Assembly: GCF_005862235.1 (NCBI RefSeq)
Contig: NZ_VCEK01000001.1
Coordinates: 806,001-870,000, forward strand
Reading direction: 5' to 3'
From: Saccharomonospora piscinae
GTDB lineage: Bacteria > Actinomycetota > Actinomycetes > Mycobacteriales > Pseudonocardiaceae
DNA length: 64,000 nt
In this document: positions 39,508-52,003 of the stretch, one piece after another
How positions within the stretch are numbered: position 1 is the first letter of the stretch
Layout of the letters: every line of letters starts with the position of its first letter
Notes under the pieces: model-generated
Database searches by the model: none
Told to the model about the DNA's origin: nothing
Seen by the model: only the letters and a program-made list of their open reading frames with translations
Made by a program: the position numbers and the translations under genes

Positions 39508-39542
39508 GGTACAGCTACCCACGTCACCCGTGTGGTGGACCA

Positions 39543-39556
39543 GGGCCGAAAGTCCC
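39543..39556. promoter_or_regulatory. DosR box upstream of devR
   Basis: GGGCCGAAAGTCCC matches 12/14 of GGGACTWWAGTCCC and ends 58 bases before the devR ATG. It suggests positive autoregulation of devR, as in mycobacteria. Confidence 0.72.
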
Positions 39557-39614: not shown

Positions 39615-40283
39615 ATGACGATTCGCGTGTTCCTCGTCGATGACCACGAGATCGTGCGGCGCGGCCTGGCCGACCTGCTGGACGGCGAGTCGGACATGCG
39701 GATCGTCGGTGAGGCCGCCTCGGTCGGCGAGGCGCTGACGCGCATTCCCGGCGCGGAGGCCGACGTGGCGGTGCTGGACGTGCGGCTTCCCGACGGCAAC
39801 GGCGTGGAACTGTGCCGCGAGCTGCTGTCCACGGTCGAGGGCCTGCGGTGTCTGATGCTGACCTCGTACGCCGACGACGAGGCCCTGTTCAACGCGATCA
39901 TGGCGGGGGCGTCGGGTTTCGTGCTCAAGCAGGTGCTGGGGTCGGATCTGGTGTCGGCGGTGCGCACGGTCGGTTCCGGTGGGTCGCTGCTCGACAGCAA
40001 GACGACGTCGGCGCTCATGAACCGCATCCGCAGGGAACGGGCCGACGCCGACCCGGTCGCGGAACTGTCCGAGCAGGAACGCGCCGTGTTCGAACTCATC
40101 GGCGAAGGGCTCACCAACCGCGAGATCGCCGCACGCCTCTACCTGGCCGAGAAGACCGTGAAGAACTACGTGTCGCGCCTGCTGGGCAAGCTGGGCATGC
40201 AGCGGCGGACCCAGGCGGCCGTGCTCGCGACGGAGCTGCGCAAGCAGGGACCGCCGACGCCGCCCGATCCGCCGAGCCCGTGA
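39615..40283 (+). CDS. devR: DevR/DosR response regulator
   Basis: A 222-residue NarL-type response regulator. The receiver has the acidic pair in FLVDDHE, phosphoacceptor Asp55 ([13 protein letters not shown]), Thr83 and Lys105. The LuxR-type helix-turn-helix ends in [26 protein letters not shown] with Lys180, Lys183 and Asn184, the DNA-contact residues of DosR. Identity to M. tuberculosis DosR is visible along the whole length. It activates dormancy genes through GGGACT-type boxes. It converges with devS, only nine bases away, instead of forming an operon. Confidence 0.95.
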
Positions 40284-40292
40284 TCGCAGGGC

Positions 40293-42854
<2,562 letters not shown>

Positions 42855-43915: not shown

Positions 43916-43929
43916 GGGTCTTTGGTCCC
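43916..43929. promoter_or_regulatory. DosR box between nitroreductase and USP genes
   Basis: GGGTCTTTGGTCCC matches 12/14 of GGGACTWWAGTCCC. It lies 59 bases from the nitroreductase start and 51 from the USP start, so one box can serve both divergent genes. Confidence 0.72.
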
Positions 43930-43980
43930 CGGGACCTCCGACTCTCGCCGGGCACGCCGCCGAGGGGCAGGCTCGCACCC

Positions 43981-44452: not shown

Positions 44453-45049
44453 TCAGTCCTCGGTCCGGTGGCGCACGGTCGCGCGCACCACCCCGGGGAC
44501 CGACTCGGCCAGTACCGTGGCCACGTGCCGGTCGGTGGCGTCGTCGTGGTCGTCGAGGATCGTGACCGTGCCGCCGGAGACGTTCACGCTCCAGCGGTCC
44601 GGGCCTCCGTAGATCATCAGCCGCCGCCGCACGTCCCTCGCGATGTCGGCGTCCTCGCGCGACAACGCCCGCACCACGTCGTGCCGGGTCACGATGCCGG
44701 CGAGCCGGTCCCCGGCCAGCACCGGCATCACCCGGTGGTGGCCGTCCAGCAGGGCCGCCACGAGGTCGGCGACGTCGGTGCCCTGGTCGGTGCAGGCGGG
44801 CGCGACGGCCATCACCTCCCCCACCTCGCCAGGCGGCGGCTCCGTCGCCGTCGTGCGGTAGCGCGGGTCGCGGGGCACGCGGCCCGCCATGACGTCGGCC
44901 TCCGTCACGATGCCGATGACCCGGTCCGAGTCGTCCACCACCGGCAACGCGGTGAACCCGTGCTCGGCCAGCAGCCGGGCGGCACGTTTCACCGGGTCGC
45001 CGGGGCTCACCGTGACGACCGGGCTGCTCATGATGTCCTTCGCCCGCAT
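44453..45049 (-). CDS. CBS-domain pair protein with C-terminal BON domain
   Basis: A 198-residue protein with two CBS domains (MRAKDIMSSPVVTVSPGDPV; VGEVMAVAP...RVMPVLAGDRLAGIVTRHDVV) and a short BON domain (VRRRLMIYGGP...VATVLAESVPGV). The CBS part resembles Hrp1/Rv2626c, the hypoxia-induced protein of the DosR regulon. It is the last gene of the operon from 46897. It would bind an adenosyl ligand; the partner is unknown. Confidence 0.88.
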   Translation of the reverse strand: MRAKDIMSSPVVTVSPGDPVKRAARLLAEHGFTALPVVDDSDRVIGIVTEADVMAGRVPRDPRYRTTATEPPPGEVGEVMAVAPACTDQGTDVADLVAALLDGHHRVMPVLAGDRLAGIVTRHDVVRALSREDADIARDVRRRLMIYGGPDRWSVNVSGGTVTILDDHDDATDRHVATVLAESVPGVVRATVRHRTED

Positions 45050-45056
45050 CGAGACC

Positions 45057-45953
45057 TCAGTCCTGCCCCGCCGACCGTCGCACGACCGCCACCGGACACG
45101 GCGCGTGCGCGATCAGCGCCTGACTCGTCGAACCCAGCAACATGCCCCGGAACCCGCTCCGCCCCCGGCTGCCGACGACCACCAGCCGGGCACGGTCGGC
45201 GTGCTCCAGCAGCGTGCGCACCGGGCGTCCGCGTACCACCACCGGTTCCACCGCGACGCTGGGATAGGCACCCCGCCACGGAGCCACCTGCTCGGCCAGC
45301 GCGGCCCGCTCGTCGGCCTCGATCCGCTCGGGGTCCACCGTGAGCGGGTAGCGCGGGACCGCGTCGAGCACGATCCCGCTCCACGTTCGCACCACCACGA
45401 GCGGCGCTCCCCGCAGCTCAGCCTCGGCGAACGCGAACGCCAGCGCGGCCGTGCTGGGCTCCGACCCGTCCACCCCGGCCACGACGGCACCCTGCGACGG
45501 CGGCTCGCCGCCGGGGCGCAGCCGGTCGCGCCCGCGCACCACCACGACCGGCGAGTGCCCGTGCGCGGCCAGCGCCACCGCGACCGAACCCACGAGCATG
45601 CCCGTGAACCCGCCCAGCCCGCGCGATCCCAGCACCACCAGCTCGGCCCGGTGGGACTCCGCCAGCAGCACCGGGACGGCCTCGCCCTCGGCGAGCTCGG
45701 TCTCGACGGCCACCTCGGGCGCCGCCGTCTCCGCCGCCGTCCTCGCCTCCTCCAGCCATCGCGCACCCTGGTCGCGCATGCCTTCCCGCAGCTGGGGAAA
45801 CGTCGCCGCGAAATCGGGATAGCCGTGTACCGGGACCAGATAGGCATGCACCAGTCGCAGCGTCGCGCCCCGGTGTTCCGCGTCGGTCGCGGCCCAGCGG
45901 ACGGCGTTCACGGCCGCCGGTGACCCGTCCACCGCCGCGACGACGGTGCTCAT
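45057..45953 (-). CDS. Tandem universal stress protein
   Basis: A 298-residue protein with two USP domains, both with intact G-2x-G-9x-G(S/T) sites (VLGSRGLGGFTGMLVGSVA; VVGSRGRSGFRGMLLGSTS). The layout is that of Rv2623, a DosR-regulated ATP-binding growth regulator. It overlaps the upstream USP gene by ATGA and is followed by the CBS gene after seven bases. Confidence 0.92.
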   Translation of the reverse strand: MSTVVAAVDGSPAAVNAVRWAATDAEHRGATLRLVHAYLVPVHGYPDFAATFPQLREGMRDQGARWLEEARTAAETAAPEVAVETELAEGEAVPVLLAESHRAELVVLGSRGLGGFTGMLVGSVAVALAAHGHSPVVVVRGRDRLRPGGEPPSQGAVVAGVDGSEPSTAALAFAFAEAELRGAPLVVVRTWSGIVLDAVPRYPLTVDPERIEADERAALAEQVAPWRGAYPSVAVEPVVVRGRPVRTLLEHADRARLVVVGSRGRSGFRGMLLGSTSQALIAHAPCPVAVVRRSAGQD

Positions 45954-46897
45954 GGCCCCGTCCTCTCCGCGCGGCGGGCGGCGTGTCCCGCCGTACCCGC
46001 GCGGGTCCCCTGGGGCACGACCAGCAGCGGGCACGGCGCGGAGTGCGCCAGCGCGTGGCTCGTCGAGCCTGACATCCTGCCGCCGAGCTCGCCGTGCCCG
46101 GTGGTGCCGACCACGAGAAGCTGGGCTGTCCCGGCGTGCCGCAGCAACGCGGCCTCCGGCCCGTCGCGGGCCACGACCCGCTCCACGTCCACCTCGGGGT
46201 ACCACTCGCGCAGGCCGGCCAGGCGTTCCGCGAGGGTCACCGCGTCAGCGGTCTCGTCCTCACCCCACGGGTGCCGGTCCTTCCGGTGTCCCTTGCCCCG
46301 CGGCCCCGCATCCACCGCGTGGACGGCGACCAGCGGGGCGGCCCGCACGGCGGCCTCCTCGAACGCGACCGCCACCGCGTCGGCACTCGGTGGCGAGCCG
46401 TCGACCCCGACCACGACGGCCCCGTCGCGCGGCGGCGTCTCGGAGTCACCCGGCCAGCGCACGAGCGCAAGGGGACAGGCGGCGTGTGCCAGCAGAGCCG
46501 CGGTCACCGTGCCGAGCCTGCCGCGCCGCCGCTGCCCCTCGGCGGCGCCGACGGCGACGACGAAGGCCGCCCGCGCCCGCTCGGTGAGCACCGGGGCCGC
46601 CGTTCCGACGGCCAGTTCGGTGCCGATCTCCGGAACCCGCGACGGCGGCGTCACCCGCTCGGCGACGGCACCGGCCTCGGCCAGCCACGCCCGGCCGCGC
46701 TCCTCCAGCTCCACGAAATGGCCAGGCGACAACCCGATGCCCGAACCGTACGGTGTCGGCGGCGCGATGGCACTGACCAGCCGCAACGGCCGGTGCCTGC
46801 GCGCGGCGGTCACGGCGCCCCAGGCCACCGCGCGAAGGGCGTCGGCCGAGCCGTCCACCCCCACGACGACCTCGGCGGCGCCCGCGTCCAGGCCCAT
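45950..46897 (-). CDS. Tandem universal stress protein (one degenerate domain)
   Basis: A 315-residue two-domain USP. Domain 2 keeps a full nucleotide motif (VVGTTGHGELGGRMSGSTS), whereas domain 1 is degenerate (VAVGAAEGQRRRGRLGTVT). It is the first gene of the USP-USP-CBS operon, and a DosR-like box at 46959 is 61 bases upstream of the ATG. The family is clear, the role regulatory by inference. Confidence 0.9.
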   Translation of the reverse strand: MGLDAGAAEVVVGVDGSADALRAVAWGAVTAARRHRPLRLVSAIAPPTPYGSGIGLSPGHFVELEERGRAWLAEAGAVAERVTPPSRVPEIGTELAVGTAAPVLTERARAAFVVAVGAAEGQRRRGRLGTVTAALLAHAACPLALVRWPGDSETPPRDGAVVVGVDGSPPSADAVAVAFEEAAVRAAPLVAVHAVDAGPRGKGHRKDRHPWGEDETADAVTLAERLAGLREWYPEVDVERVVARDGPEAALLRHAGTAQLLVVGTTGHGELGGRMSGSTSHALAHSAPCPLLVVPQGTRAGTAGHAARRAERTGP

Positions 46898-46958
46898 CGA
46901 CCGCTCCCTCCAGCCCGTGTTTCAGACCAGCGTGGCCGGGTCGGCCGGGCGGCGACAG

Positions 46959-46972
46959 GAGTCGAAAGCCCC
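46959..46972. promoter_or_regulatory. Candidate DosR-like box upstream of the USP-USP-CBS operon
   Basis: GAGTCGAAAGCCCC matches 10/14, with the spacing to the start (61 bases) seen at other boxes. Confidence 0.5.
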
Positions 46973-47015
46973 TGCCGGGCGGGCACTGTGCCCGCCACGG
47001 CCGACACCGGCATCG

Positions 47016-47029
47016 GTGTCCTTCGGCCC
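47016..47029. promoter_or_regulatory. Candidate DosR-like box upstream of the GAPDH-like gene
   Basis: GTGTCCTTCGGCCC matches 9/14 and lies 35 bases before the GTG of the GAPDH-like gene. Together with 46959 it forms a divergent promoter region. Confidence 0.4.
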
Positions 47030-47064
47030 TGCCGACGGCGGCGGTGCCTGGCGACCATCGACCT

Positions 47065-48078
47065 GTGACGCTCGTGCTGGGCATCAACGGGTTCGGCCGC
47101 CTCGGCCGGGTGCTGTTGCGGTGCGTGCTGTCGCGTTCCCCGGACCGCGACCCGATCGAGGTGGTGGCCGTCAACGACCCCGCCGACGCCGATTCGCTGG
47201 CCTACCTGCTGGAGTACGACTCCACCTACGGCGGGCTGGCGCAGCCGGTGCGGGTGCGCGGGCGCACGCTGTGTGTGGGTGACCAGCGCATCCAGCTCAC
47301 CTCGGCGGCGAACCCGGGCGAGGTGGACTGGCGTCGCGCGGGCGCGGACGTCGTGGTGGAGACGACCGGCCCGGCGTCGGCACGGCGGGACGCCGCCGCA
47401 CATCTGGCGGCGGGCGCGCGCAAGGTCGTCGTGGCGGCCTACCACCCCCGCGCCGACGCCACGATCGCGGTCGGGATCAACGACGACGACTACGACCCGA
47501 GCAGCCACCACGTCGTCTCGGCGGGGTCGGGCACCGCACTGTGCGTGGCGCCCATGCTGCTGGTCCTGCACCGCGGCTTCGGCGTCCGCCACGCGGCCCT
47601 GACGTCGATCCACAGCTACACCGGCGATCAGTCGCTCGTGGACCGGCCACACCGCGACCCCCGGCGGGCGCGTTCGGCGGCGGTGAACATCATCCCGACG
47701 GCCACCGGTGCCGCCCGTGCGGTGGGAGCCCTGCTGCCCGAGCTGGCCGGGGCCGTCGACGCCGTCGCCGTGCGCGTGCCCGTGGAGGGCGGGTGCCTGG
47801 CCGACCTCAGCGTGCTGGTGCGCTCGGCGGTGACGCCGGGTCAGGTCAATCGCGCCTTCGCCGACGCAGCGGCGGCAGGGCTGGCCCCGCTGCTGCGCTA
47901 CACCGATGCCCCGGTGGTGTCGCGCGACGTCGTGGGCTCCGACGCATCGTGCGTGTTCGACTCCCGCCTGAGCACCACGTGCGCGGAACTCGTCAAGGTC
48001 TTCGGGTGGCACGACAACGAATGGGGCTACGCGCACCGGCTGCTCGCCCTCGCCGAACTCGTCAACCCGGGCGGGTGA
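47065..48078 (+). CDS. GAPDH-like protein lacking the catalytic cysteine
   Basis: A 337-residue homologue of glyceraldehyde-3-phosphate dehydrogenase. The NAD site (LGINGFGRLGR), HSYTGDQ with the catalytic His, RRARSAAVNIIPTATGAA and WHDNEWGY are all kept. At the active site the normal SNASCTTNCLAP is replaced by SAGSGTALCVAP: the catalytic Cys becomes Gly156 (codon GGC), while the second Cys (160) stays. Phosphorylating dehydrogenase activity is therefore not expected. GTG 47065 gives the family N-terminus. It stands in the dormancy island and probably forms an operon with the M50 gene two bases downstream. Confidence 0.9.
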   Translation: MTLVLGINGFGRLGRVLLRCVLSRSPDRDPIEVVAVNDPADADSLAYLLEYDSTYGGLAQPVRVRGRTLCVGDQRIQLTSAANPGEVDWRRAGADVVVETTGPASARRDAAAHLAAGARKVVVAAYHPRADATIAVGINDDDYDPSSHHVVSAGSGTALCVAPMLLVLHRGFGVRHAALTSIHSYTGDQSLVDRPHRDPRRARSAAVNIIPTATGAARAVGALLPELAGAVDAVAVRVPVEGGCLADLSVLVRSAVTPGQVNRAFADAAAAGLAPLLRYTDAPVVSRDVVGSDASCVFDSRLSTTCAELVKVFGWHDNEWGYAHRLLALAELVNPGG

Positions 48079-48080
48079 CG

Positions 48081-48854
48081 ATGCGGGCACGCGAGGGCCG
48101 AACCGGCGGGCCGAGGCTGCGGCTGCACCCGTCCTCGGCCGTGACCGTGGTGGTGCTGACCTCAACCCTGGCGCTGGGTCTGCTGCCCGTGACCGCCGCC
48201 GACCGGGCACCGGCGTGGTACTGGCTCGGCGGGCTGGCGGTCGCGCTCGCCTTCCTCGCGTGCGTGGTGGTCCACGAGGTCGCGCACGTGCTCGCCGCGC
48301 GGCGGCACGGGGTCGGCACGGAGCGCATCACGCTGTGGCTGCTCGGCGGAGTGGCGGAGCGGGACTCCGAGGCTCCCGGGCCCCGCGCCGACGCGGTGAT
48401 CGCCGTGGCCGGTCCCGCCGCGAGCGTCCTGACGGGCGCGGTGTTCTGGGCCGTGGCCCTCGTGGCCCAGCCGATGCTGGCGCCGGTGCCGCTGGCGTCG
48501 TTGCTCTGGCTCGGCACCGCGAACCTGCTGCTCGCGCTCGTCGCGTTGCTGCCGGGCTCGCCCCTGGACGGCGGGCGGCTCGTGCGCGCACTGGTCTGGG
48601 CCCGCACCGGCGACCGGGCCAGGGGCGAGCGCGTGGCGCGGCGCTGCGGTCGGGTCATCGGAGTGCTGCTGCTGGCGGGCGGCGCGGTGGAGGTGATCCT
48701 GTTCGGACAGTTCGTCGGGATCTGGCTGTCGGTGCTCGGTTGGCTCGTCCTGGGCACGCGCACCCTGCCCGCACCCGGGCGGGAGCGGGTGGCGGCCGGA
48801 GGTCCCCCTCCCACGGGACGTTCGGCCGCGGTCGGCGGGCCCGGACCGGCCTAG
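48081..48854 (+). CDS. M50-family site-2-type membrane metalloprotease (Rv2625c-like)
   Basis: A 257-residue membrane protein. The zinc motif HEVAH (His65, Glu66, His69) sits in a membrane helix, and the third ligand Asp163 is in GSPLDGGR, the normal S2P layout. Four to six helices are visible. The mycobacterial DosR regulon contains a similar protease (Rv2625c) next to Hrp1 and USP genes. It starts two bases after the GAPDH-like stop. Substrate unknown. Confidence 0.88.
   Translation: MRAREGRTGGPRLRLHPSSAVTVVVLTSTLALGLLPVTAADRAPAWYWLGGLAVALAFLACVVVHEVAHVLAARRHGVGTERITLWLLGGVAERDSEAPGPRADAVIAVAGPAASVLTGAVFWAVALVAQPMLAPVPLASLLWLGTANLLLALVALLPGSPLDGGRLVRALVWARTGDRARGERVARRCGRVIGVLLLAGGAVEVILFGQFVGIWLSVLGWLVLGTRTLPAPGRERVAAGGPPPTGRSAAVGGPGPA
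48815..48828. promoter_or_regulatory. Candidate DosR-like box upstream of tandem USP
   Basis: GGGACGTTCGGCCG matches 10/14 with a full GGGAC half-site, inside the 3' end of the protease gene and 78 bases before the USP ATG. Confidence 0.45.
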
Positions 48855-48906: not shown

Positions 48907-49836
48907 ATGACCGATCCCTACAGCGGCAACACGCCCATCGTGGTCGGAGTGGACGACACCGAGTCCGCGATGCGGGCCGTGCGCTGGGGCGCACTCACGG
49001 CGGCGCGGCACAGGGCACCGCTGCACCTGGTCCACGCCTCCGGCTTCAGCGATCCGTACATCTTCGGTTTCACCGTCCCGCCGCCCGAGGCGTTCAAGGA
49101 GGAGCTGCGCCAGCGCCAGCAGCAGGCACTGCGCACGGCGGAGCGGATCGCGACCGAACTGGCGGCACCCCACGTCGAGGCGCGTTTCGAGATCGAGTCG
49201 GCGATCCCGACCCTGCTGAACCTGTCCCACTCGGCGCGCATGGTGGTGGTCGGCTCCTCCGGCCGCACCGGCCTGGCCGGACTGGTGGTCGGCTCGACCA
49301 CACTCGCGCTGGTGAGCCACGCCCACAGCCCCGTCGTGTCGGTGCGGGGCGACTATCCCGAGGCCGTGGCCCAGGACACGCGCCCGGTCGTGGTCGGCGT
49401 GGACGGCAGCGAGCTGAGCGTACGGGCCGTGGGGTTCGCGTTCGAGGAGGCGGCGTTTCGCGAGGTGCCGCTGCTCGCCGTCCACACCTGGAGCGATACG
49501 AGCACCGCCGTGTTCGACGAACAGCGGCTGTACTACGACTGGGAACCGGTGCGCGACTACGAGTCACGGCTGCTCTCCGAACGGCTGGCCGGATGGCAGG
49601 AGCACTACCCCGACGTCGTCGTGGAACGCGAGGTGGTCAAGGACCGGCCCCGGCACGAATTGCTGGAACGCAGCCGGTCGGCGCAGCTCGTCGTGGTCGG
49701 CAGCCACGGCAGGGGCGGATTCCGGGGCATGCTGCTGGGCTCCACGAGTCAGGCACTCATCCACCACGCCGGATGCCCCGTCATGATCGTGCGACCCGAA
49801 CGGCACCACGGCCATTCCCACGGCCGTGGTGAGTGA
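48907..49836 (+). CDS. Tandem universal stress protein
   Basis: A 309-residue two-domain USP with both nucleotide sites intact (VVGSSGRTGLAGLVVGSTT; VVGSHGRGGFRGMLLGSTS). The C-terminus is His-rich (RHHGHSHGRGE), which could bind metal. It resembles Rv2623/Rv1996-type DosR proteins. It converges with the DUF3048 gene six bases away. Confidence 0.92.
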   Translation: MTDPYSGNTPIVVGVDDTESAMRAVRWGALTAARHRAPLHLVHASGFSDPYIFGFTVPPPEAFKEELRQRQQQALRTAERIATELAAPHVEARFEIESAIPTLLNLSHSARMVVVGSSGRTGLAGLVVGSTTLALVSHAHSPVVSVRGDYPEAVAQDTRPVVVGVDGSELSVRAVGFAFEEAAFREVPLLAVHTWSDTSTAVFDEQRLYYDWEPVRDYESRLLSERLAGWQEHYPDVVVEREVVKDRPRHELLERSRSAQLVVVGSHGRGGFRGMLLGSTSQALIHHAGCPVMIVRPERHHGHSHGRGE

Positions 49837-51848: not shown

Positions 51849-51903
51849 GGCACCTCCGATCACCCCTTTCGTCCAGCGTGCTCCGGCCCCGCGCGAGCCC
51901 GAA

Positions 51904-51917
51904 GGGACTTAGGTCCC
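51904..51917. promoter_or_regulatory. DosR box between adh and hspX
   Basis: GGGACTTAGGTCCC matches 13/14 of GGGACTWWAGTCCC. It is 55 bases from the adh start and 86 from the hspX start. Confidence 0.85.
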
Positions 51918-52003
51918 TCGCGCCCGTGTGCGGACGGCTCTCGCCCCGAAACCACCTTTCCGAGTGCGATGAAGGCAGGGCACAACGACGAAAGGAGTCC
52001 GCC

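Follow-up and report, generated by a model that had tools for sequence, protein, structure and literature searches.

A conserved GAPDH homologue with glycine at the catalytic cysteine position in a dormancy-type island of Saccharomonospora

Few enzymes are as conserved as GAPDH, which is defined by its active-site cysteine. What, then, does a GAPDH fold do once this residue is gone? The question is raised by a gene shared by a group of soil and marine actinobacteria, here that of Saccharomonospora piscinae located in the window, the 64,000-nucleotide stretch of DNA that was analysed (Table 1). The answer bears on whether dormancy regulons carry metabolite-sensing pseudoenzymes.

The frame is open from its GTG start codon (47065) to its TGA stop codon (48078), and the start position is common to seven orthologues of the same clade, with ATG in six and TTG in one. 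The product matches the Pfam domains Gp_dh_N (97 bits) and Gp_dh_C (151 bits), and among solved structures it is closest to type I GAPDHs, at about 45% amino acid sequence identity. An AlphaFold2 model built with 31 aligned sequences has a mean pLDDT of 89.8 and a TM-score of 0.92 to the GAPDHs of C. glutamicum and B. stearothermophilus. Residues 187-191 of the model are poorly predicted; they belong to the S-loop, which normally lies in the core of the GAPDH tetramer. Both domains and the fold are those of catalytic type I GAPDHs (TIGR01534; PF00044 and PF02800; PDB 8hro-8hrt, 1gd1), as are the NAD P-loop, Asp32, His176, Arg231 and the S-loop (site names such as Cys149 follow what we take to be the B. 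stearothermophilus GAPDH numbering). The protein departs from them by a glycine at the nucleophile Cys149, by altered pocket residues and by a score of 322.4 bits against the GAPDH-I equivalog TIGR01534, whose cut-off of 367.2 bits it does not reach.

Table 1. Position and basis of assignment of the features discussed, in window coordinates.
Feature	Coordinates	Strand	Basis
Pseudo-GAPDH, type I GAPDH homologue, 337 aa, nucleophile Cys replaced by Gly	47065..48078	+	ORF, Pfam, alignment, tree, model
Altered active-site block SAGSGTALC; Gly156 codon (Cys149 position) at 47530-47532	47518..47544	+	
M50 (site-2-protease-type) peptidase gene	48081..48854	+	Pfam PF02163, 75.7 bits
Universal stress protein (USP) gene, divergent neighbour	45950..46897	-	synteny
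Universal stress protein (USP) gene, downstream neighbour	48907..49836	+	Pfam Usp, synteny
CBS-domain protein of the island	44453..45049	-	Pfam CBS
DosR/DevR/OsdR-like response regulator	39624..40283	+	Response_reg + GerE
DosS/OsdK-like GAF histidine kinase	40293..42032	-	GAF x2, HisKA_3, HATPase_c
DosR/OsdR-type box-like site GGTGTCCTTCGGCCCT, 50 nt before the GAPDH-like start	47015..47030	+	
Second, weaker box-like site, same intergenic region	46958..46972	-	

Residues 152-160 of the window protein read S-A-G-S-G-T-A-L-C, and Gly156 (codon ggc) aligns exactly with the catalytic cysteine that solved GAPDHs have in their SCTTNC block. The Cys149 column holds glycine in 8/8 members of the clade and cysteine in all 53 other aligned GAPDHs, which are 42 island-type and 11 canonical sequences including the C. 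glutamicum enzyme. The residue was read in 50 island-type and 10 canonical sequences from among the matches in 100 relatives and 390 genomes of the family, and in the C. glutamicum enzyme. The eight glycine sequences come from eight genomes: six Saccharomonospora (a second GAPDH of island type was found in six of the twelve genomes of the genus searched), S. marina (G054) and a sister genome (G396). The alignment thus bears out the preliminary description of a GAPDH homologue with Cys replaced by Gly in the block SAGSGTALC. No orthologue keeping the cysteine is found in the clade, where the seven others all have glycine; relatives that have the cysteine come from other genera. Because all eight clade genomes carry it, the glycine is neither a sequencing error nor a strain-specific mutation. 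The protein and its orthologues are enzyme homologues in which an essential catalytic residue is missing, and thus probable pseudoenzymes.

In a separate scan, bacterial and archaeal genomes yielded 80 loci, 76 with cysteine, one with glycine (clade member NB11) and three that were not read. A motif-level search of 396 genomes of the phylum gave no GAPDH with an otherwise canonical block and a non-Cys codon, at a sensitivity of about 60%, estimated from the Cys form of the pattern, which was found in 18 of 30 genomes; the pattern takes in neither codons with T as first base (among them some for Ser and those for Phe and Tyr) nor the altered block of the window protein. Applied to nine control genomes, the pattern picked out the two S. 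marina-type ones and not the other seven. No title in the open-licence literature was relevant to a natural Cys-less GAPDH or to Saccharomonospora with GAPDH.

In a maximum-likelihood tree of 61 sequences the eight glycine proteins form one clade (support 100/99), nearest to the Cys-bearing sequences of Prauserella muralis and of genome G395, and the canonical GAPDHs form a clade separate from the island-type sequences. Read from this gene tree, the cysteine was lost once, in the common ancestor of the glycine clade; this clade covers Saccharomonospora sensu lato. The closest relatives in the tree, the island-type GAPDHs of Amycolatopsis, Prauserella and relatives, differ from the clade in keeping the cysteine; in many of their loci USP and/or CBS genes are neighbours, and an M50 gene lies downstream in some. 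Both S. marina and the sister genome encode, in addition, a third, very divergent GAPDH-like protein with the Cys motif kept (L163, G054:C1:3377964-3378929); the S. marina sequence, on a long branch, is in the tree and was excluded from the column counts.

The phosphorylating GAPDH mechanism needs the Cys thiol to form the thiohemiacetal and thioacyl intermediates. Neither can form without the thiol, so that no phosphorylating GAPDH activity is to be expected from the known mechanism. The ordinary glycolytic step would be ensured by the canonical gap-pgk-tpi operon, with the block SNASCTTNC, found elsewhere in the same genome (G000:C3:712 kb). Our favoured hypothesis, to which we give about an even chance, is that a conserved pseudo-GAPDH binds ligands such as NAD(H) and triose phosphate rather than oxidising them. 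An extra island-encoded GAPDH, Cys-bearing in related genera, would have lost its nucleophile once, leaving a GAPDH-like tetramer that could take up NAD(H) and/or triose phosphate non-covalently and act as sensor, regulator or partner protein under a DosR-type response. Crystals of engineered C149A and C149S mutants of B. stearothermophilus GAPDH bind NAD, as their PDB titles state (1npt, 1nq5), and Cys-less GAPDH mutants bind substrate non-covalently according to PMC2662861; ligand binding without catalysis is therefore physically sound. The pseudo-GAPDH is, like these mutants, a GAPDH without Cys149, whereas they are laboratory point mutants and it is natural, conserved and further altered. 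From its sequence, a binding role as sensor, regulator or partner protein appears the most likely one; NAD(H) sensing is put forward as a suggestion, as was a structural role in the preliminary description.

The extent of the further alterations was read at 139 constrained sites. At each of these a single state is shared by 90% or more of the 42 Cys-bearing island-type rows and likewise by 90% or more of the 11 canonical rows; two sites in the list are gap columns. Seventy-five of the 139 are unaltered in all eight glycine proteins. The S. marina pair departs at 12-13 sites, against 12 in the most divergent Cys-bearing island-type row and 13 in the C. glutamicum row, and so is not altered, overall, beyond what the outer Cys-bearing rows show; in the six Saccharomonospora proteins the departures number 26-46. 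The pair has the block SGASGTTNC and conventional residues at the listed NAD-contact sites, while the block of the six reads SA(A/G)SG(T/A/V)A(H/L/Q)C. The catalytic histidine and the C-terminal motifs are retained, as first proposed: all eight glycine proteins have His176, the phosphate-site Arg231, Ser148, the NGFGR P-loop and Asp32, with Thr179, Thr208, Gly209 and Asn313 in 7/8, and Asp181 in six, replaced by Glu and Ile in the remaining two. The window protein itself has all four of His176, Arg231, Thr179 and Asp181. The orthologue of genome G010 is the exception at most such sites. The companion proposal that the NAD site is kept stands fully for the S. marina-type pair and, throughout the clade, for the P-loop and Asp32. 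It holds only in part for the six Saccharomonospora proteins, in which Phe99 and Ser119 are replaced by Ala, Pro121 by Tyr/Phe in five and Gly97 by other residues in four, the SAPGK-type loop 119-123 becoming A(A/G)(Y/F)HP in five of the six. Since the pocket is remodelled there, their ligand may differ. A natural series is thereby available, from the Cys form of Prauserella muralis through S. marina, where the cysteine is lost and the NAD site conventional, to the remodelled forms of S. azurea and S. cyanea, with which one can ask what a non-enzymatic GAPDH fold does.

The main rival, which we hold unlikely, is decay in progress: an unnecessary extra GAPDH would have lost its nucleophile and be drifting to loss. 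Several observations fit it. In S. glauca (G001) the GAPDH-like gene is cleanly deleted from an island that is otherwise in place, M50 gene included (L185:8700-9930); the region still resembles that of S. cyanea over roughly the first 45 bases of the gene and again over roughly the last 14, so that short remnants are left at both ends. The protein is therefore dispensable in at least this species, which lost the gene and kept the rest of the island. No second GAPDH copy was found in six of the twelve genomes of the genus, five of these six being assemblies of 80-190 contigs. The G010 orthologue (L136:9183-10241) has insertions, a degraded S-loop, degraded phosphate sites and raised dN/dS (0.31-0.41 in pairs with it), and may be decaying. 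Divergence between the six genes and the S. marina pair has a mean dN/dS of 0.358 (12 pairs), against 0.305 in 369 Cys-bearing pairs of like dS, and the stem branch leading to the six is long (0.4), which together point to faster change after the loss of the cysteine, followed by constraint; some relaxation or adaptive change at that stage is likely.

Against decay, all eight frames are intact at dS values of up to about 0.9, and His176, Arg231, Ser148 and the P-loop are invariant. Within the groups, purifying selection is as strong as on the neighbouring genes and on the Cys-bearing relatives. The six Saccharomonospora genes have dN/dS values of 0.136-0.412 with a mean of 0.246 (15 pairs), and a second alignment gives a mean of 0.251, or 0.193 without G010; twelve neighbouring island genes have means of 0.07-0.34, canonical gap 0.11 and the four Cys-bearing groups 0.09-0.27. 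The S. marina pair stands at 0.094. These values come from a counting method with no codon-bias model. As its dN/dS resembles that of its neighbours and of its Cys-bearing relatives, the pseudo-GAPDH is maintained by purifying selection as a full-length protein.

Two other rivals are less likely than decay. The improbable one of a regulatory or decoy subunit has the protein co-assemble with the canonical GAPDH and alter its activity or location during hypoxia. A canonical gene is indeed present in the same genome, the fold is shared to the TM-score given above for solved GAPDHs, and the S-loop, the core tetramer interface, is nearly unaltered in seven of the eight proteins; identity to the canonical subunit is only 45%, however, and the island-type sequences stand apart from the canonical clade. 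Poorer still are the prospects of a new enzyme, in which the remodelled pocket together with His176 and Arg231 would catalyse another reaction on a phosphorylated substrate. Retention of both residues and the states shared by the Saccharomonospora proteins, Tyr/Phe-His-Pro (121-123) in five of the six and Ala99 and Ala151 in all six, would suit such an enzyme. Yet the S. marina-type proteins share the cysteine loss without the remodelled residues, G010 has no Tyr-His-Pro, and the gene context indicates no substrate. That the protein is still an ordinary GAPDH using the retained Cys153 as nucleophile is scarcely credible: Cys153 is present in 8/8 proteins but shows the same invariance in all 53 sequences that have Cys149, and so is not a replacement nucleophile, and the established chemistry of GAPDH does not have it positioned for hydride transfer.

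Synteny, the regulator pair and the USP genes confirm the initial placement of the gene in a dormancy-type (DosR-type) island, which also carries Hsp20 genes. The response regulator is 91-96% identical in six other Saccharomonospora, and the island order is retained in the five other gene-bearing Saccharomonospora and in S. glauca, with fewer neighbours at the S. viridis copy. The synteny comparison covered 17 neighbour queries, of which two (Acg1, USPs), with a stop inside the boundaries chosen, are left out of the argument. A gap of 2 nt separates the stop codon of the GAPDH-like gene from the M50 gene, which lies downstream in all six Saccharomonospora orthologues and at both S. marina-type loci. 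The two genes likely share a transcript, and the pseudo-GAPDH would be co-expressed with the protease. The regulator pair and USP genes in one island, together with CBS genes and box-like sites that are clear in the glycine loci as a group but weak in the window, resemble the mycobacterial DosR/DevR and Streptomyces OsdR regulons. Synteny and these sites are the observations that bear on the initially proposed production of the protein under hypoxia. No GAPDH is known to us in the mycobacterial DosR regulon. The term 'glyceraldehyde' has 0 occurrences in the main text of the OsdR regulon paper (PMC5069765). By extension, though this is a long shot, a natural thiol-free GAPDH may have been selected as a dormancy binding protein: its active site, unlike that of a normal GAPDH, would escape nitrosation and oxidation, and it could thus go on reporting NAD(H) or triose phosphate, or holding a partner, under NO exposure and hypoxia, perhaps gating the co-transcribed M50 intramembrane protease.

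Some Cys-bearing island loci include genes of carbon metabolism. In G178 (L141:10539-11654) a whole archaeal-type FBPase_3 gene follows the island GAPDH and precedes the M50 gene, with phosphoketolase and acetate kinase genes near, which suggests a carbon-metabolism module. G255 has FBPase_3 near the island GAPDH on the other strand (G255:C24:586816-587895), and G333 (L145:10878-11375) and G270 have fragments only. A link between the loss of the cysteine and that of FBPase_3 or phosphoketolase does not hold. FBPase_3, present in 9 of 42 genomes overall, is missing in all seven Saccharomonospora searched, yet 26 of the 33 Cys-bearing genomes lack it too, and the two S. marina-type genomes carry it, well away from the island. 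Phosphoketolase matches are strong in G009, G003 and G010 and only weak in the window's genome (G000), G004, G005 and S. glauca.

The box-like site nearest to the GAPDH-like gene is weak alone, with 11/16 matches, a score reached by 26% of shuffles. Promoters were scored over the 200 bases upstream of each gene with the OsdR consensus printed in PMC5069765, an independent standard used in place of a hand-made box that was partly fitted to the data. The eight glycine loci sum to 98/128, against 79.4 (sd 2.3) in shuffles, and twelve Cys-bearing loci to 127, against 117.6 (sd 2.7), sums whose significance is overstated since related promoters are treated as independent. Taken singly, six of the eight glycine loci and two of the twelve Cys-bearing ones have scores reached by fewer than 5% of shuffles. 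Both S. marina-type loci have a site of 14/16. The site lies at -72 to -77 in seven glycine loci and at -50 in the window. Ten canonical gap promoters have no excess with the same consensus (93, against 97.3 in shuffles). The M. tuberculosis DosR consensus, in the form that we presume, exceeds shuffles in a single one of 20 promoters and at no glycine locus among the eight. Box-like sites are also still visible by eye upstream of the S. glauca deletion. Across the window the hand-made box is not enriched, with 88 sites scoring at least 12 against 119-176 in five shuffles, and a looser palindrome is, with 21 occurrences against a mean of 12.3, a number reached in 1 of 100 shuffles. Higher-scoring palindromes by the hand-made consensus occur at 39542-39556, 43916-43930 and 51903-51918, and lie upstream of the dosR-like gene, by a small USP gene and by an Hsp20 gene.
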